DNA of 64,000 nucleotides from NCBI GenBank assembly GCA_913055785.1, contig CAJXLJ010000001.1:1-64000 (forward strand), written 5' to 3'. Made by a program: the position numbers and the translations under genes. Positions within the stretch are counted from its first letter, which is position 1, and each line of letters opens with the position of its first letter. The notes under the pieces were generated by a model. That model saw only the letters and a list, made by a program, of their open reading frames with translations. It made no database searches and was not told the origin of the DNA. This document shows positions 14,932 to 25,042 of this stretch, piece by piece. Origin of the DNA: an uncultured Parvularculaceae bacterium (GTDB taxonomy: Bacteria > Pseudomonadota > Alphaproteobacteria > Caulobacterales > Parvularculaceae).

Positions 14932-16440
14932 ATGGTCGCCGTTGCCGTCGAAGAAACGAAATCCAGCCCCTGGACGCCGCCGCTGATTGCGTATGGCGTG
15001 TTTCTGCTCGCCTGCATCGCCGCATTTTACTCAACCGTCTCAGGCATGCTCAGCGCCTGGACCTATTCCTCCACCTACCATCACGGCTTTCTGGTTGCGC
15101 CGGCCGTGCTGTTCATGATCGCCGCCAGACCGGCGCCCGCGACGCTGGGCGGCGGCGCGCTCTTGGGATACGCGTTTGTCGCCGCCGGAGCGGCGCTCTG
15201 GCTCGCCGGGCATGCAGCCGGCGCGCTTATCCTTGAAGAATTCGCCCTCATCACCGTGCTGATCGGCGGCGCCGGCGTCGCTTTCGGCGCACACGCCCTC
15301 AAGCACTGGGCCTATCCGCTCGCATTTCTGTACTTCATGGTCCCGTTCGGGGACGCCATCGTGCCGGCGCTGCAAACGGTCACCGCGAAAAGCGTCGTCT
15401 GGCTGCTCTCAACCGTCGGCGTCCCGGTCGCGATTGAAGGGTATCTGATCCGCACGCCGGCCGGACTGTTTGAAATCGCCGAAGCCTGCGCAGGTCTGCG
15501 CTTCCTTCTGGCCGCTTTGATGGTCGCAGCGTTCTGCGCGAACATGCTGTTCGCAACCTGGCGCAAGCGCATTCTATTCCTTCTTTTTGCGGCGGCGCTG
15601 GCGATCGCCGCCAACGGCGTGCGCGCTTTCATGATGGTGCTGATCGCCACGCTCACCGACAAGCAATGGGCCGTAGGGCCGGATCACCAGCTCATGGGCT
15701 GGGCGCTCTACGCCTTCATGTTTTTCGTGCTGATATCCATGGGCCGGCGGTTCGCCGACAACTGCAGCGAAGAAAAGCCTCAAACGGAACCCCTCCTCCA
15801 GAACGCCAAAATGACGGTGATGGCGCCGGCGTTCGCTATCCTGATCGCCATGACCATCTACAGCGCTTCGGTGATCGACCGCCCGATCCGCCGCGACGCC
15901 CCGGCGAGCCTGTCTCTCTTCAACGCGCCGGGATGGCGCATCCTTCCGCCGCCGGCGAACTGGAGCGCAAGCCTGCCGTTCGCGGACCGCGCCGCCGGCG
16001 CGACCTATGCGAACGACAATGCGCAAGTTTACGTGGCGATCGGGTATGTTACTCATGACCGCAAAGGCGCGGAAATCGTCAATGCAAAAAACCGCGCCCA
16101 TGACGGCGGCGACTGGCGTCTTGCCGGCAGAGCGGATGAAGTCGTCTATCTCTTCGGCGAGTCTCAGAAACAGCCGTTCGAGCTGATCGCCGGACCGGAA
16201 CGCAGACGGCTTGCGGTTCTCACCGCCTATTGGCTGGATGATAAAATCTATCTCGAACCGAACCGGCTGAAGCTGGCGCAGATGAAAGCAAGGCTCAAAG
16301 GCGTCAACCCTTCAGGCGGCGTCATCATGATCGCCGCTTCATATACGCGCGACCCAATAGAGGCGGTTCACGCCATCCGCGCCTTCACCTCGGATGTCGA
16401 ACCTTTTGGCGGTTGGCTTCAGCGCAATCACGGCATGTAA
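14932..16440 (+). CDS. xrtA: Exosortase A with C-terminal EpsI domain
   Basis: A 502-residue integral membrane protein. The N-terminal two-thirds has about eight hydrophobic segments and the three exosortase catalytic residues: C186 in EIAEACAGLRFL, R231 in ANGVRAFM and H252 in GPDHQLMGW. XrtA is a transpeptidase-like enzyme that processes proteins carrying a C-terminal PEP-CTERM anchor, in systems linked to exopolysaccharide. The soluble C-terminal part (about 320-500, APGWRILPP, YVAIGYVTHDRKGAEIVN) is an EpsI domain. ATG 14932 is chosen with GGAG nearby. The amidotransferase gene follows after three bases. No substrate with a PEP-CTERM tail is visible in the window. Confidence 0.9.
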   Translation: MVAVAVEETKSSPWTPPLIAYGVFLLACIAAFYSTVSGMLSAWTYSSTYHHGFLVAPAVLFMIAARPAPATLGGGALLGYAFVAAGAALWLAGHAAGALILEEFALITVLIGGAGVAFGAHALKHWAYPLAFLYFMVPFGDAIVPALQTVTAKSVVWLLSTVGVPVAIEGYLIRTPAGLFEIAEACAGLRFLLAALMVAAFCANMLFATWRKRILFLLFAAALAIAANGVRAFMMVLIATLTDKQWAVGPDHQLMGWALYAFMFFVLISMGRRFADNCSEEKPQTEPLLQNAKMTVMAPAFAILIAMTIYSASVIDRPIRRDAPASLSLFNAPGWRILPPPANWSASLPFADRAAGATYANDNAQVYVAIGYVTHDRKGAEIVNAKNRAHDGGDWRLAGRADEVVYLFGESQKQPFELIAGPERRRLAVLTAYWLDDKIYLEPNRLKLAQMKARLKGVNPSGGVIMIAASYTRDPIEAVHAIRAFTSDVEPFGGWLQRNHGM

Positions 16441-16443
16441 GCC

Positions 16444-18330
16444 ATGTGCGGGATCGCCGGCATTGTCGATGTAAAGAGCGATCGCGAAATCGACCGGGAC
16501 GCGCTCCATCGCATGACCGATGCGCTGGCTCATCGCGGACCGGACGGCGAAGGCTTTTTTATCGAACCCGGGGCCGGTTTCGGCCATCGCCGTCTGGCGA
16601 TCATCGACCGCGAAGGCGGCGCCCAGCCTTTTACGACGGGAACGCGCCGATGCGTTCTGACCTATAACGGCGAAATCTATAACTACCGGGACCTCGCCCG
16701 CGATCTCGAAAGCGTCGGACTGGCCTTGCGCACCCGTTCGGACACCGAAGCCCTCGCCGAAGGCTGGGCGCGGCGCGGCGGCGAATTCGTTCACCAACTG
16801 CGCGGCATGTTTGCGTTTTCCTTCTGGGAGCCGGACGCCCGCCGCCTGACGCTCGCCCGCGACCGGCTGGGCGAAAAGCCGCTATATTACGCCGAAACGC
16901 CGGACGGGTTTCTGCTGTTCGCATCGGAAATCGGCGCGCTGCTCGCATCCGGTCTGATCGATCCGGATCTGTCGCCGGAAGCGGTCGCGGACTACTTCTT
17001 TTACGGCTACATCCCCGATCCGAAAACGATCTACCGCAATATCTACAAACTTCCGCCTGCGCATCTTCTGATCGTCGAGCCGGGCGCACGCATCCGGCTC
17101 GAGCGGTACTGGCGTCCGGTCTTCGCCTCCGGCGGCAATCTCGGTTTCAACGACGCCGCGGAGATGTTGCGCGAGCGCCTCGACGAGACTGTCGCCGCAC
17201 AGCTCGTCTCTGACGTACCGGTTGGCGCGTTCCTCTCCGGCGGGGTCGATTCGGCGGGTGTGATCTCGGCCATGCATGAAGCCGGCGGCAAGCTCATCGC
17301 CTGCACTGTCGGCTTCGATGCGGAAAGCCATGATGAACGCCGCCGCGCCTCGCTCATGGCGGAGAAGTTCGGCGCCGACCATCATGTATACGCAGCCGGC
17401 CTTGACGCCGGCGAACTCATCGACGAGGTCGCCGCAGCCTTCGGCGAGCCCTTCGCGGATACGTCGGCGCTGTCGAGCTACATCGTGTCAAAAATGGCGC
17501 GACAGCATGTAACGGTGGCGCTCTCGGGCGACGGCGGCGACGAGCTTTTCGCCGGTTATCGCCGATACCCATTCGCGCTTGGCGAAGAGCGGCTGCGCAG
17601 TCTGGCGCCGTTGCCGATCCGCAAGGCCGTCTTCGGTCCAGCCGGCGCGCTCTATCCGAAACTCGACTGGGCGCCCCGCCCCTTGCGTTTCAAGACCACG
17701 TTCCAGTCGCTCGCGCTCACCGCCGCGCAAGGCTACGCCGCCGCTGTCGCGATCAACCTTCCGGCCCGCGCCAGATCCTTGCTGAGCAAGGACTTGCAGC
17801 GCGCCCTCGGCGGCTACAATCCGCATGATGTGATCGAAGCTGCGATGGATGACGCTAATACCGACGATCCGTTGTCCCGGCTTTTATATGCCGATCTCCT
17901 GACATGGCTGCCGGGACGCATGCTGACCAAGGTGGACCGCGCCTCCATGGCGCACTCTCTAGAGGTAAGACCGCCTCTCCTCGATCACCGGATGGTCGAA
18001 TGGGCGGGCGGGCTGCCGTCGCGTTTCAAGCTTTATAAGGGCGCGCGCAAACGTCTCCTGAAAGCCGCCCTCGCGCCGCGCCTCGGCGCCGATTACGTCA
18101 ATGCGCCGAAGCAGGGTTTCGACCTGCCGGTCGACCAATGGCTTCGCGCAGAGAAAAACAATCCGCTCGACCGGCTGGAAGACTCCGCCGTCTGGCGCGA
18201 CAGCGGGCTCATCGACGAAAAAGCCGTGCGCCGCCTCGCCAGAGCGCATCAAAGCGGCGCGGCGAACGCCGGTCAGGAATTATGGAGCGTCATCATGTTC
18301 GACGCCTTCCTGCGCGGCGCGCGGCCCTGA
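16444..18330 (+). CDS. Asparagine synthetase-like amidotransferase of the XrtA system
   Basis: A 628-residue protein with an N-terminal class II glutamine amidotransferase domain (nucleophile Cys2 in MCGIAGIVD; HRGPDGEG; YNGEIYNYRDL) and a C-terminal asparagine synthetase domain with the PP-loop SGGVDSAGVISAM and LSGDGGDELFAGYRRY. Full-length members beside exosortase genes form a distinct group (exosortase A system-associated amidotransferase) thought to modify polysaccharide or peptide precursors rather than make free asparagine; the acceptor is unknown. It is immediately downstream of xrtA. Its 3' end overlaps the convergent GNAT-like gene by 51 bases. Confidence 0.9.
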   Translation: MCGIAGIVDVKSDREIDRDALHRMTDALAHRGPDGEGFFIEPGAGFGHRRLAIIDREGGAQPFTTGTRRCVLTYNGEIYNYRDLARDLESVGLALRTRSDTEALAEGWARRGGEFVHQLRGMFAFSFWEPDARRLTLARDRLGEKPLYYAETPDGFLLFASEIGALLASGLIDPDLSPEAVADYFFYGYIPDPKTIYRNIYKLPPAHLLIVEPGARIRLERYWRPVFASGGNLGFNDAAEMLRERLDETVAAQLVSDVPVGAFLSGGVDSAGVISAMHEAGGKLIACTVGFDAESHDERRRASLMAEKFGADHHVYAAGLDAGELIDEVAAAFGEPFADTSALSSYIVSKMARQHVTVALSGDGGDELFAGYRRYPFALGEERLRSLAPLPIRKAVFGPAGALYPKLDWAPRPLRFKTTFQSLALTAAQGYAAAVAINLPARARSLLSKDLQRALGGYNPHDVIEAAMDDANTDDPLSRLLYADLLTWLPGRMLTKVDRASMAHSLEVRPPLLDHRMVEWAGGLPSRFKLYKGARKRLLKAALAPRLGADYVNAPKQGFDLPVDQWLRAEKNNPLDRLEDSAVWRDSGLIDEKAVRRLARAHQSGAANAGQELWSVIMFDAFLRGARP

Positions 18331-19398
18331 ACCTTTCAGAGCATTCCTGATCGCGATGCGCCATGACGAACGCTCAAGGGCAATGCTCGTGAGGGTTACC
18401 GCCGGCGCTCCGAACCGGCGCTTGTAGTCGGCCTCGCCGGCGAGCAGGTCGTAAACACCGGCGCCGTGTTCAAGATAATGCTGGCAGGCAAGCGCATGGC
18501 AGACAAAGCCGGGCGTCAGCCGGTTGTCGTCTTCCGCCCTGAAGCCGCTTTGATAGTTCATGACGCGGCCTTCATAACTGAAATTGTAAAGCACGCCGAT
18601 CGCCTCATCCCCGCAAGTGATTTCCATCAGCTCGCAGGCGTCTGGCGCCAGCCTCTGAAGCTTTTCATGGAAGTCGAGGAAAAGCCGGTTGGAGAAGGCC
18701 CCGACGCCGCGCCACCGCGCTTCATGCAATTCGCCGAGCCGGCGCCATGCATCGAGACGGTCTTCATTGGATGCGATGCGGCAGGTCAAATTTCCACGCT
18801 CTTCGTATCCGCGGATCGCGCGCCGGACCTTGTTGCGCAAGGAAGCGCTTTCAAGACTCTCGATAAAGTCTCCCCCGCGCTCCCTGATCGCCGCGAGATC
18901 AATCGCATAAACCGGCTGCTCGAGGAGCGTCCTCGACGCCCAGGGCCCGCCCTCTGCGAAGCCGCGCACCGCCGCAGACATTTCCGGCCGCAGATTTCGA
19001 AAGACAATTGTATCGGCGCCGCAAAACCGGCTTGCGATTTCCGCGATCATCGCGCCGCGCAAAGATGGGTCCGCGCCGGGAAGGCTCAGAAAATCGACAT
19101 ACTCCATGTAAATCGCGTCAAGCGAAGGGTCGCCGGTTTCGAAAAACCGCGCTTCCTCAAGACCGATTATCGCCGGCCGTCGCCCACCGCCGCCGATAAC
19201 CCCCATCATGACAGGCTTATCTCCCTCCCGCGCTTCTATGGAGAAAAGCCGGGCGCGGGCCCGCGCGCATTCAAGCCAAGCTTCCAGCCATGACGGGGAC
19301 TGAAAAAAAGTCTTCTGATCAGCATGCGCGAAAAGCATTCGCCAGCGTGCGAGAAAAGCGGCGGCGTCTCCTATCGGCTCGATGACAATCTCAGCCAT
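18280..19398 (-). CDS. GNAT/FemAB-like acyltransferase (CelD/BcsL type)
   Basis: A 372-residue cytoplasmic protein of the Acetyltransf_6/CelD-like kind. QKTFFQSPSWLEAWLE lies near the N-terminus. LESASLRNKVRRAIRGYEERGNL lies in the middle, followed by RLGELHEARWRGVGAFSN, and FSYEGRVMNYQSGF lies before GAGVYDLLAGEADYKRRFG. Such proteins are frequent in exopolysaccharide and exosortase loci, where they may add an acyl or aminoacyl group to a sugar or peptide. I chose ATG 19398, which overlaps the glycosyltransferase stop by eight bases; a TTG six codons upstream is less likely. Coupled translation with the glycosyltransferase is likely. Confidence 0.78.
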   Translation of the reverse strand: MAEIVIEPIGDAAAFLARWRMLFAHADQKTFFQSPSWLEAWLECARARARLFSIEAREGDKPVMMGVIGGGGRRPAIIGLEEARFFETGDPSLDAIYMEYVDFLSLPGADPSLRGAMIAEIASRFCGADTIVFRNLRPEMSAAVRGFAEGGPWASRTLLEQPVYAIDLAAIRERGGDFIESLESASLRNKVRRAIRGYEERGNLTCRIASNEDRLDAWRRLGELHEARWRGVGAFSNRLFLDFHEKLQRLAPDACELMEITCGDEAIGVLYNFSYEGRVMNYQSGFRAEDDNRLTPGFVCHALACQHYLEHGAGVYDLLAGEADYKRRFGAPAVTLTSIALERSSWRIAIRNALKGSGPRAAQEGVEHDDAP

Positions 19399-20518
19399 GA
19401 CGCCTAGCCAGTTCAAGATAAAGCTTACGGTGACGTTCGATCATGGTCGCGGCGTTGAATTCATCCCTGGCTTTTCGGCTGTTCGCCGCGCCAATTTTCT
19501 CACGTGCGTCCTGATCCTGCATAAGGTGCGCCAGCGCGTCCACAAATGCATCCTCGTCGCCAAGCGGCGTGATGAACGCCCGGTTCTCTTCCGAGACCAT
19601 CTTCGCGATATCGCCGACATTGGTGGCGACCACCGGCAGACCGGACGCCATCGCCTCCATCAACACGAGCGGCGCCTGTTCAGTGTCGGAAGAAATCGCA
19701 AAGACGTCGAATTCATTATACGCTTCCTCCGGCGCGCGAGTCGGCCCCGGCAGGGAAATACGGTCTCTGGCGCCGCTGCTTTCGATTGAATCGCGTAAAT
19801 GCGTGCGCTCAGGTCCCGCGCCGTAAATCGTCAGCGCCGCCTTGCGCGCCTGGTCGGCCTTCACGAAAGCGTTGACCAGCCGCGTAAAATTCTTCTCCGG
19901 CCGTAACGCGCCAACGGCGCCGATCGTAATGCGATGACCGAGCCGGGACGACTTCGTTTGAAATCGCGCGTAGTCAACGCCGTTTTCGATCCGCAGCACC
20001 CGGGAGGCGTCGAGCTTCCAGATGTCCTTCGCGGCGGCCTCCAACTCGTGTGAAGGCACAACCACCATCGCCCCTCGTAGCAACAATCGCCGCGCGATCA
20101 CGCGCCGTTCTTTTTGCTCCCGCACGGATTCTCCCGGCCCGAAGCCGTCTTCGAAATGGAGGTGCGGCAGACGCGGCCCGAGACGATTGGCGATCGAGGC
20201 TTCAATGGAGCCCCAGTTATACGTGCATAAAATATCGGGCTTGGTATCCTTCAAAAGCTTCCTGTAGCGGATAACGTTAGCAAGGCTGATGAAGGCGGAC
20301 TTGCGCGCCGGAAACTTCCAGTATCGGACCGGCGCATGGTAAGGCACCAGCGATCGCGCCGTGAAATCGCCGTCGAGCGCGGTTACATGATGAGAAAACG
20401 CGCCGCCCATGCCGCCGGCGGTCACAGCAAAGCGCGCCTGTTGGCCGCCATAGCCAAAGGACGGAAAGACATGCAGCATCGTGATTGGCGCTGCTTCCGG
20501 GTTTTGGGCGCCTATCAT
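19391..20518 (-). CDS. Glycosyltransferase family 4 protein
   Basis: A 375-residue GT-B fold transferase. The N-terminal domain begins TMLHVFPSFGYGGQQARF, the glycine-rich acceptor-side loop of GT4 enzymes, and has LHFEDGFGPGES. The C-terminal domain has GAVGALRPEKNFTRLVNAF, LTIYGAGPE and the nucleotide-sugar-binding EX7E region SSDTEQAPLVLMEAMASGLPVVAT. It presumably transfers a hexose to a lipid-linked or polysaccharide precursor on the cytoplasmic face. The start is ATG 20518; an in-frame TTG at 20554 is possible. With the following GNAT-like gene it faces the xrtA-amidotransferase pair, so the four form one locus. Confidence 0.88.
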   Translation of the reverse strand: MIGAQNPEAAPITMLHVFPSFGYGGQQARFAVTAGGMGGAFSHHVTALDGDFTARSLVPYHAPVRYWKFPARKSAFISLANVIRYRKLLKDTKPDILCTYNWGSIEASIANRLGPRLPHLHFEDGFGPGESVREQKERRVIARRLLLRGAMVVVPSHELEAAAKDIWKLDASRVLRIENGVDYARFQTKSSRLGHRITIGAVGALRPEKNFTRLVNAFVKADQARKAALTIYGAGPERTHLRDSIESSGARDRISLPGPTRAPEEAYNEFDVFAISSDTEQAPLVLMEAMASGLPVVATNVGDIAKMVSEENRAFITPLGDEDAFVDALAHLMQDQDAREKIGAANSRKARDEFNAATMIERHRKLYLELARRHG

Positions 20519-20580
20519 GGCGGTGAGATTTGCCGCAGTTCGCGCCGCGTGCAAAGGCTATCAAGTAACAGGATAAGACG

Positions 20581-22609: not shown

Positions 22610-25042
22610 TCAGGAGAAAATGAAATCGCTGGCCGTGACATGCACATTCGTTACGATTGTAAAGTCAGCGCTACCATCGCCGTCTGTGTCGCCCTCGATG
22701 AAGCTCTTACCGCCAGGGCCGGCATAGGCGCGTAATTCTCCCGCCGTGTTGCTGAAGGCGCTCGACCCGATCCAAGCGAACGCATCATGGCCGCCGCCGT
22801 CGATTGCGTCCAATCCGCTCAGATCGATAACATCGTGGCCCTTTTTGAAGCTCTGGATGATATCCGTGCCGCCGGTTTCAGTGAATTCGAAGATGTCATC
22901 ACCGTTGCCGCCAACCAGCGTATCATCGCCGGCGCCGCCGTTCAGCACGTCATCGTCGTTGCCTCCCAACAACAGGTCGTTGTCGGCGCCGCCGTGGAGA
23001 ACGTCCTCTCCCCGACCGCCTTCCAGCGTATCGTCGCCTTCGCGGCCCATTAACGTGTCGTCGCCGTTCTGACCGCCGCCGCTGAGATTATTGGCGACCT
23101 CATTGCCGAGGATGATGTCGTTTCCTTTGCCGCCGACGGCGTTCTCGATAACCACGCCGTGCGCGATCGTGTAGCCGCCGTAAACACCCCTTGCGTACGA
23201 CATCGCACCGCCGCCAGTGGGCGAGTAGTCGATCGTCGCTGCGAGAAGGTCAATCTGGGCGTCCGTATCGCCACCGTAAACAATCGTGTCCGTTCCGCCG
23301 GTATCCCAGATCGTTTCATAATACGTTCCGGGTTTGCTGAACTTGCCGATTTCGTAGACGTCATTGCCTGTATTGTGCGGATTGATGACGCCGTAGCGTT
23401 CTTGCAGCGCCGCAATGTCAAATGCGCTGAGCGTGCCTGACCAGCCGTTGTCGATGCCTGCCGCGGTGTAAGGCGACGGGCCGTCCGGATGGAGCTGCCA
23501 GGCGTCATTGTAGGACATGACCGTATAGACGCCCTGATTGAGATCATAAACGCCGAACGATCCCTGAGACGCCGTCACGCCAAACAGGACCTCAGAGCCG
23601 CCGCCCGTATCATGCGGGTGGGCGAGCCCGTGCGCATGACCGAATTCATGCAAGACGACGCCGAAAGAAAAGCCGCCCTGAAGCAGGCTCTGCTGCTGGT
23701 CAAAGTTCCAGCCGCCGCTGAGAACGTTGAAAACACCAACGCCCTGCGAAGCGCCGTAGCTCGGATCCTGCGGGAAGAAGTAGGCGCCGTATTGCTGCGA
23801 TTCAGTCTTCAGCAGGCGGAACGTCGCTTCATCCACATCGTCCGTGATTTCATAATTCACGCCGAGGATGTTCTCATATTCCTCAAGCGCCAGCATGACT
23901 TGCTGTTTTTCATAATCATTCCAGTCGATGGTGACCATCGCGCCGCCGTTATCGCCGGTCTGATCGAAATTCTCATCCGAATCGCCGAAGTAGACGTATG
24001 CCGTGTTCGACTCGTCGAAAGCGACATTATTCGCGCTCTCCCAGATGAGCGAGTCCAGCGGATCCAAGGCGGACAGATCGATTTCTTGAGACGTGATCGA
24101 AAAGCCGCCTGTCCATGGCGCCCATGAAAATACATCAAGGTAGTAGGTGCCGGTTTCGGCGGCCTGGAAGGTTATTCTGGAACTGATGTCGCTTGGGAAA
24201 CTGATGTCGTCGTTGAATGTGACGAAATTGCCGGACGGATCATAGATAGCCGCGACAGTATCAATTTCACCCGGCGGAAGCGCAAACCAGTCGGAGGCGT
24301 AATCCGCGCCGCCCGCAACCTCGATTGTATAGATCTTTCCGGCTTCGGCGGCGAAAGCGAATGTATCTACTTCACCATAGCTCGGCCCGTAGACGACCCC
24401 CGGACCGGGATCGATATAGCCGTATTTGATCGATCCGATCGTGAGCGGTTCAGCGCTGCCGAAGGTGTCTCCAACGACGTCAAAGCCCGGCGTAGCGACT
24501 GCATCCAGTGTATAATCGCCCGTCAGTGTCGACCAGCCGCCTACTGCCAAGTAATGAGTGCCTGAATAGTCGGCCGTGTACGTTATTAATGACATACGGC
24601 CGGCACCGCCGTCATCGTCCTCGGCGACAACAGTCAGCGTGTCGTCGCCAATATAAAGAAGCGTATCTTCTATGGGCGTCGCGCCCGAACCATAGACAGA
24701 GAATATATAAGTCTGACCGGCAGCAAGACTGATCGAATACAGATCAACCTCGCCCGGCGCGCCGATTGTGCCGTCAACGATGACTTCGGAAGGAACAGAG
24801 CTGAGCTCCGTAGGCGCAGACGCAACGCCGCTCAAGGTCGACGGCGAAGCGATCGGCGAACCGCCGCTTTTGAAATGCGGATCCCATTCCGGATAGACGA
24901 TGATATCGCCCGGATCCGGTTTATTCAGAACGTCACCTAGATCGCCGCGTTCCAGGCCGACTTGCAACTCTTCTGTTTGCGAGCTTGTTTGCGAGCTCTG
25001 GCTTTCGTCAAGGTCCGCGAAACGATTGGATTTTTTCGCCAT
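22610..25042 (-). CDS. Secreted RTX metalloprotease (M10/serralysin type) with two pre-peptidase domains
   Basis: An 810-residue protein with no N-terminal signal peptide. Order of parts: a Gln/Ser-rich N-terminus; two PPC-like beta domains (about 75-185 and 190-325); a metzincin catalytic domain with HEFGHAHGLAH at 465-475 and the Met-turn MSYN at 509-512; then RTX nonapeptides (GGxGxDxL repeats from GREGDDTLEG to GGNGDDIFEF). The last part is a C-terminal M10_C-like domain ending in ASDFIFS, a hydrophobic end expected for a type I secretion signal. It would be exported by an ABC/HlyD/TolC system not present here and activated by calcium. It sits between ftsB and eno and has a gene-specific terminator, suggesting an acquired unit. 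Confidence 0.9.
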   Translation of the reverse strand: MAKKSNRFADLDESQSSQTSSQTEELQVGLERGDLGDVLNKPDPGDIIVYPEWDPHFKSGGSPIASPSTLSGVASAPTELSSVPSEVIVDGTIGAPGEVDLYSISLAAGQTYIFSVYGSGATPIEDTLLYIGDDTLTVVAEDDDGGAGRMSLITYTADYSGTHYLAVGGWSTLTGDYTLDAVATPGFDVVGDTFGSAEPLTIGSIKYGYIDPGPGVVYGPSYGEVDTFAFAAEAGKIYTIEVAGGADYASDWFALPPGEIDTVAAIYDPSGNFVTFNDDISFPSDISSRITFQAAETGTYYLDVFSWAPWTGGFSITSQEIDLSALDPLDSLIWESANNVAFDESNTAYVYFGDSDENFDQTGDNGGAMVTIDWNDYEKQQVMLALEEYENILGVNYEITDDVDEATFRLLKTESQQYGAYFFPQDPSYGASQGVGVFNVLSGGWNFDQQQSLLQGGFSFGVVLHEFGHAHGLAHPHDTGGGSEVLFGVTASQGSFGVYDLNQGVYTVMSYNDAWQLHPDGPSPYTAAGIDNGWSGTLSAFDIAALQERYGVINPHNTGNDVYEIGKFSKPGTYYETIWDTGGTDTIVYGGDTDAQIDLLAATIDYSPTGGGAMSYARGVYGGYTIAHGVVIENAVGGKGNDIILGNEVANNLSGGGQNGDDTLMGREGDDTLEGGRGEDVLHGGADNDLLLGGNDDDVLNGGAGDDTLVGGNGDDIFEFTETGGTDIIQSFKKGHDVIDLSGLDAIDGGGHDAFAWIGSSAFSNTAGELRAYAGPGGKSFIEGDTDGDGSADFTIVTNVHVTASDFIFS

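Follow-up and report, generated by a model that had tools for sequence, protein, structure and literature searches.

We analysed a 64,000-nucleotide (nt) stretch of DNA from an uncultured marine Parvularculaceae bacterium (GCA_913055785.1, contig CAJXLJ010000001.1, positions 1 to 64,000; hereafter the window), which carries an exosortase A (XrtA) cassette at 14932-20518. "Orphan" exosortases without a visible client are usually ascribed to missed tails or to decay. The window carries the enzymes of an exosortase A system whose most likely client is a single small protein, encoded on another contig, C35, and probably made via a programmed -1 ribosomal frameshift. The original prediction, drawn from the window sequence, had suggested that the exosortase might act on a single distantly encoded protein or on a few of them, and this was supported by one classic PEP-CTERM protein, on C35, whose synthesis looks frameshift-dependent.

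The best classic PEP-CTERM match in the source genome lies on C35 (TIGR02595, 20.2 bits against a cut-off of 16). It falls in an open reading frame (ORF), ORF2, that has no credible start, and a second frame, ORF1, lies directly upstream of it in the +1 frame:

C35:6884-7449, minus strand: split client gene (ORF1 and ORF2), carrying the PEP-CTERM tail match
C35:7231-7449: ORF1, 72-73 amino acid (aa) product with an N-terminal hydrophobic helix, ending at a stop codon

ORF2, in the -1 frame relative to ORF1, encodes a proline-rich stalk and a PEP-CTERM tail; its C-terminus, APEPGTLILLMTGALLYRFYTSKPKPVKIKS, has the PEP motif, hydrophobic stretch and basic end of such tails. ORF1 contains an invariant NCGCCG motif, and a near-invariant ARAVGDIRNDIVVNCGCCG was noted in the source-genome copy (C35:7231-7449). 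ORF1 matched no Pfam family, and the frameshift element matched no Rfam family.

The same split arrangement was first met in seven other genomes. In a wider search, 40 of 119 order-wide relatives matched, all of them in family f1; two of the 40, the weak ORF1 matches in G030 and G038, were rejected because no recognisable gene lies there. All 36 named loci that matched are labelled as Parvularculaceae, Marinicaulis, Parvularcula, Amphiplicatus or unclassified alphaproteobacteria, and in a class-wide search of 385 genomes drawn evenly ORF1 was found only in the source genome. The gene was present in 82 of 84 loci, which reduce to 38 distinct orthologues, one of which runs off its contig (L153) and another of which has an early nonsense codon (L161). 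A lysozyme-like neighbour stands beside the gene in 38/38 loci and mgtE in 28/38, several of these loci being cut by contig ends; the shared neighbours identify the 38 genes as orthologues at one place.

None of the 38 orthologues joins ORF1 and ORF2 by an in-frame fusion, and 37 break frame at the same place, including two from strain-titled records, Amphiplicatus metriothermophilus (L157) and Marinicaulis flavus (L164). Among sequence pairs more than 80% identical, ORF1 has 799 mismatches, 555 of them at third positions; ORF2, counted in its own frame, has 828, of which 501 are at third positions. The median ratio of nonsynonymous to synonymous change (pN/pS), taken over 29 pairs for ORF1 and 15 pairs for ORF2 read in the -1 frame, was 0.16 and 0.31, respectively. 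By these measures, ORF1 and ORF2 are both coding and under purifying selection. Most of the genomes are metagenome assemblies, and an early nonsense codon interrupts ORF1 in L161/L208 (G058), as would suit a pseudogene or sequencing and assembly errors; the shared break in 37 distinct genes, two of them from strain-titled records, and the selection on both frames leave that explanation next to no probability. The G058 copy itself, which may reflect decay or an assembly error, occurs in a genome that has the XrtA cassette.

At the junction, 36 of the 38 orthologues read C/G-UUUU followed by U(AG/GA/AA); one has UUUC, and the remaining one is the early nonsense allele (L161/L208). With L161 set aside, a U precedes the last sense codon in 37/37 genes; 36 of these use UUU as the last sense codon and one uses UUC. 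The resulting slippery motif is U_UU.U in 36/38 and U_UU.C in one, and in seven genes it extends to a canonical heptamer (CCCTTTT in five, CCCTTTC and GGGTTTT in one each). A systematic study in E. coli (PMC4066793) places U_UU.U and U_UU.C among the tetramers most prone to shifting when a stimulator is provided. ORF1 ends in UAG in 21 genes, UGA in 10 and UAA in 7, L161 being counted at its early stop; all three stop codons are thus used, and the slip would not depend on any one of them.

The T-run present at the junction in 36/38 genes could also suit slippage of RNA polymerase, which would insert a base and restore the frame. The run is only five T long and one gene has TTTCT, whereas transcriptional slippage is reported for Tn with n above 8 (PMC3711429). 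The messenger RNA stem, the upstream GGAGG and the covariation described below fit ribosomal stimulators and not polymerase slippage, which we regard as highly improbable.

A Shine-Dalgarno-like match lies upstream of the heptamer, its end 11 nt away, in 25 of 37 genes (GGAGG or longer in 24, AAGG in one), and three more genes have AAGGAG, GGAG or GGAGG at 8-10 nt before the heptamer. In the E. coli tetramer study (PMC4066793), such stimulators were sought 6-17 nt upstream. Downstream, RNAalifold predicted a stem in which CCCGCC and GUU pair with RAY and GGCGGG, with its first pair 6 nt past the slip codon. The fold set comprised 36 related sequences, L153 and L161 having been left out beforehand. 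Counted without regard to relatedness, the nine pairs of the stem are paired in 97.2% of cells and five have changed on both sides. Of 500 shuffles, none reached the count of pairs with two-sided changes seen in the full structure of 13 pairs, and slid controls reached at most 1. The stem is part of the minimum free energy fold of 36/36 single sequences, with a mean z of -3.4 against dinucleotide shuffles. Silent sites are frozen within the stem arms (Val GTT in 31/31, Arg CGG in 36/36), and four different codons are used at an Arg position outside the paired arms. An inner hairpin, GCCGG/CCGGC, is well paired and was rejected as covariation evidence since it has no two-sided changes. The conserved overlap, slippery motif, Shine-Dalgarno-like element and downstream structure together have the makeup of a putative programmed -1 ribosomal frameshift site.

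Because the ORF1 stop overlaps ORF2, ORF2 might instead give a protein of its own, through translational coupling, reinitiation at that stop or a separate start, and the ORF2 codon at the junction is indeed TTG, a possible start, in 10 of the 38 genes (L161 included). It is TTA in 26 and CTA in 2, neither of which is a start, and in 11/38 genes the ORF2 frame offers no ATG, GTG or TTG at or upstream of the junction. By eye, ORF2 has no N-terminal hydrophobic stretch, so that on its own it would not be exported to an exosortase. Reinitiation also leaves the invariant U-run and the downstream stem unexplained, and a separately translated ORF2 seems to us very unlikely.

Under the frameshift model, translation of ORF1 would reach the last sense codon before the stop, UUU (UUC in one gene), where the Phe-tRNA could re-pair one base back on the U-run (U_UU.Y), aided by contact with the internal GGAGG upstream and by the long stem 6 nt downstream. 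The ribosome would then read the -1 frame into the proline-rich stalk and PEP-CTERM tail, and XrtA would recognise and process the tail of this long form. Most ribosomes would stop after ORF1 and yield a short, tail-less membrane peptide, with a fraction slipping to give the long sortable form. The negative net charge after the ORF1 helix would favour placing the stalk in the periplasm. The slip in cells and its efficiency, the membrane topology, the cleavage by XrtA and the link to exopolysaccharide are predictions, and the model as a whole is built from sequence. That no lineage has fixed an in-frame fusion suggests that the short product, or the ratio of products, matters. We can only tentatively propose that the frameshift is a regulated switch between a short membrane peptide and an exosortase-sorted stalk protein, with surface display through XrtA set by recoding. 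The cue for such a switch might come from the nascent chain, from the stem or from the membrane state.

The assignment of this client to XrtA comes from its distribution. Among 42 family genomes with completeness of 90% or more and contamination of 5% or less, and with the cassette defined as an exosortase match adjoining the amidotransferase, 24 had both gene and cassette, none had the gene only, 5 had the cassette only and 13 had neither (Fisher p 3e-7, to be taken as a guide only as the genomes are related). In G014, a further genome outside those quality limits, the gene occurs together with a fragment of the amidotransferase that lies at the edge of a contig. The source genome also encodes a second system, XrtD with VPLPA-CTERM proteins (TIGR04152, TIGR03370), comprising a solo XrtD on contig C5 (502.6 bits against a cut-off of 400) and 10 VPLPA-CTERM-type proteins. 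The XrtD gene on C5 (L036 15185-19136, L017 1435-2994) has an S41 peptidase, a TrmB-like regulator and groEL as neighbours and does not adjoin its VPLPA-CTERM clients.

Given XrtD, those 10 proteins and an insensitive tail model, another reading is a real frameshift gene whose tail goes to XrtD or stays uncleaved, with other or additional clients for XrtA, such as the VPLPA-CTERM proteins. Four genomes that have XrtA and lack XrtD keep the gene (G015, G020, G023 and G031), and in three of these it is the only PEP-CTERM match; it is absent from six XrtD-bearing, XrtA-free genomes that are at least 97% complete (G002, G028, G049, G052, G055 and G057). Tail matches, counted in 33 genomes and classified by a separate exosortase search, follow XrtD: six XrtA-only genomes have 1, 1, 0, 1, 0 and 1, versus 2, 7, 5, 22, 20, 5 and 9 in seven XrtD-only genomes. 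One genome that is 89% complete, G059, has 41 tail matches and no exosortase match. VPLPA-CTERM proteins were dropped as candidate XrtA clients, as XrtD was found and XrtA-only genomes are nearly free of such tails. Further weak hits in the source genome were also rejected: the two weakest PEP matches (C36, C26) and a weak VPLPA match on C42 are not PEP-CTERM tails. In the loci read, each XrtD client, unlike the split gene, is encoded in one open frame, and XrtD does not co-occur with the frameshift gene. Judged from these distributions, the split gene tracks the XrtA cassette, not XrtD, and we consider the other-client explanation fairly unlikely.

Several observations weigh against a frameshifted single client of XrtA. 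The five cassettes without the gene are in G036, G041 and G046 (all three with a different, EpsI-less XrtA type), in G050 and in G038 (a partial exosortase match). Among genomes less than 90% complete or more than 5% contaminated, G005 and G060 have the gene with no cassette found, and G018, G034, G043 and G061 have a cassette-type exosortase match and no gene. The tail model misses some tails, as in G023, so further XrtA clients may exist. The ORF2 tail of the source genome scores under the Pfam PF07589 cut-off (17.1 against 20.7), and the ORF1 helix has no basic n-region, which makes the membrane topology uncertain. At the junction, UCU precedes UUU in most sequences and does not form a canonical heptamer, and about a third of the genes have a weak or displaced GGAGG or none at all.

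The enzyme side in the window consists of the following features:

14932..16440, plus strand: xrtA-epsI fusion, ATG start at 14932 (TIGR03109, TIGR02914, PF09721, PF11984)
15487..15687, plus strand: codons spanning Cys186, Arg231 and His252, predicted catalytic residues of XrtA, placed by residue position
15922..16407, plus strand: EpsI domain, aa 331-492 of XrtA-EpsI (TIGR02914)
16444..18330, plus strand: XrtA-system amidotransferase of asparagine-synthase type (best model TIGR03108)
18280..19416, minus strand, ATG at about 19398: FemAB/GNAT-like acyltransferase (PF13480, 92.2 bits)
19391..20554, minus strand, ATG at about 20518: GT4 glycosyltransferase (PF00534, 102.3 bits)

Profile matches confirmed all four predicted genes and their arrangement in two facing units: xrtA-epsI and the amidotransferase form one, and the PF13480 and GT4 enzymes form a second, convergent unit with an overlap of 51 bases. 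The fusion protein passes the cut-offs of both TIGR03109 (234.3 against 208 bits) and TIGR02914 (67.3 against 42.8 bits). Its exosortase A domain spans aa 22-276, with the EpsI/DUF3485 domain C-terminal. The fusion is intact, and conserved Cys186, Arg231 and His252, which we take to be the exosortase catalytic triad, are all present. The amidotransferase, at 719.6 bits, is under its model cut-off of 816.9, and it adjoins XrtA in the relatives inspected. The PF13480 enzyme matched no NCBIfam family at E<=0.01 and so is not the XrtA FemAB family TIGR03019; orthologues 37-53% identical occur in 6 of 13 relative loci, those with a blastp match. The nearest XrtA model to the GT4 enzyme, TIGR03088, scores 145.5 bits, under its cut-off of 409.

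In most genus relatives inspected, acs and a pyruvate dehydrogenase E1 gene flank the cassette. A divergent XrtA and the amidotransferase are kept among some of the same neighbours in G029, G037 and G039, from two other genera; the best model for this XrtA is XrtA itself, with a score below the cut-off. In three loci (L079, L080 and L081, of G013, G015 and G023) a protein of about 700 aa takes the place of the PF13480 gene, which suggests that the sugar chemistry of the cassette varies. The one of the three that was scanned, from L080, combines a GFO/IDH/MocA oxidoreductase domain with an epimerase domain. In genus g2 (L083, L084 and L089), an EpsI-less XrtA adjoins the amidotransferase in another neighbourhood, without the frameshift gene. 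One other PEP-like protein, L130, was noted in G046. The five genomes of genus g7 (G033, G040, G045, G048 and G051) have the amidotransferase (54-57% identity) and no XrtA, and three of the five encode a different, shorter exosortase-like protein elsewhere in the genome. Elsewhere in the window (22610-25042, minus strand) lies an RTX metalloprotease of the serralysin type that has pre-peptidase C-terminal domains; its Zn_serralysin match, at 125 bits, is below the model cut-off.

The original prediction had also held that no protein inspected in the window has a PEP-CTERM-like tail and that the locus lacks the histidine kinase/response regulator and the polysaccharide export genes common elsewhere, and on the tails, the kinase and the export genes it stood. 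A tail filter applied to ORFs of at least 40 aa passed 0 of 465 in the window; among controls it passed 10/10 VPLPA tails and 32/38 frameshift tails. The only TIGR03027 match in the genome is on contig C39, with none in the window. Nineteen matches to the PrsK model were found, all far under the cut-off (the best at 72.4 bits against 300) and none on contig C1; PrsR was not searched for. No complete cluster adjoins the locus, and no crowd of PEP-CTERM proteins lies nearby. The part of the earlier interpretation that favoured a distant client was supported, and the part that invoked a reduced polysaccharide pathway was not, as a full XrtA-type exopolysaccharide cluster lies on contig C39, with seven families over their cut-offs:

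C39: export protein (TIGR03027, 232 bits, cut-off 180)
C39: chain-length protein (TIGR03007, 328 bits, cut-off 279)
C39: deacetylase (TIGR03006, 361 bits, cut-off 276)
C39: ATPase (TIGR03015, 341 bits, cut-off 325)
C39: outer-membrane protein (TIGR03016, 97 bits, cut-off 91)
C39: FemAB (TIGR03019, 370 bits, cut-off 260)
C39: stp1 (TIGR03087, 473 bits, cut-off 317)

Initiating sugar transferases are encoded on contigs C39 and C66. The exopolysaccharide pathway is split across the genome, not reduced. In a relative assembled as a single contig of 3.473 Mb, G004, the export gene is found at 0.442 Mb, far from XrtA at 3.258 Mb. The export gene scores over the cut-off in all 62 family genomes searched, including those without XrtA, which indicates that the polysaccharide machinery is independent of the presence of XrtA.

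The system resembles the known PEP-CTERM/XrtA (EpsH) system in pairing XrtA with EpsI, in the amidotransferase and in its genome-wide set of TIGR03027/03007/03006/03015/03016/03019/03087. It differs in that the cassette lies far from the exopolysaccharide cluster, no PrsK match exceeds the cut-off, and the single client found has a tail that would be reached only by a frameshift. The predicted recoding site is like those of dnaX, copA and IS3/IS911-type transposases, with a slippery U_UU.Y, an upstream Shine-Dalgarno-like element, a downstream stem and two products (here predicted). Unlike in those cases, the gene is non-mobile, the frameshift would add an extracellular sorting tail, and the slip codon stands directly before the 0-frame stop. 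Literature searches returned no paper joining an exosortase with a programmed frameshift, or PEP-CTERM with (ribosomal) frameshifting; the words "exosortase" and "frameshift" do co-occur. The accessible portions of PMC4066793, PMC3711429, PMC5009743 and PMC1569441, which include the GeneTack survey, a motif study and a recoding review, name no exosortase client with a frameshift. Frameshifting of the -1 type has precedents, as do exosortase clients; what appears to be new is the two in combination.

An XrtA client split over two frames would be missed by ordinary annotation. Conserved recoding that hides a client suggests that genuine clients can escape tail searches run on annotated proteomes. 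To a short list of bacterial -1 frameshift genes, this one would add a cellular, non-mobile case in which slippery motif, upstream Shine-Dalgarno-like element and covarying stem, the three hallmarks, all occur; its setting is surface protein sorting, for which the literature searches turned up no published case. If XrtA in these bacteria does have one substrate, it would offer a tractable system for the poorly known action of XrtA on its client.

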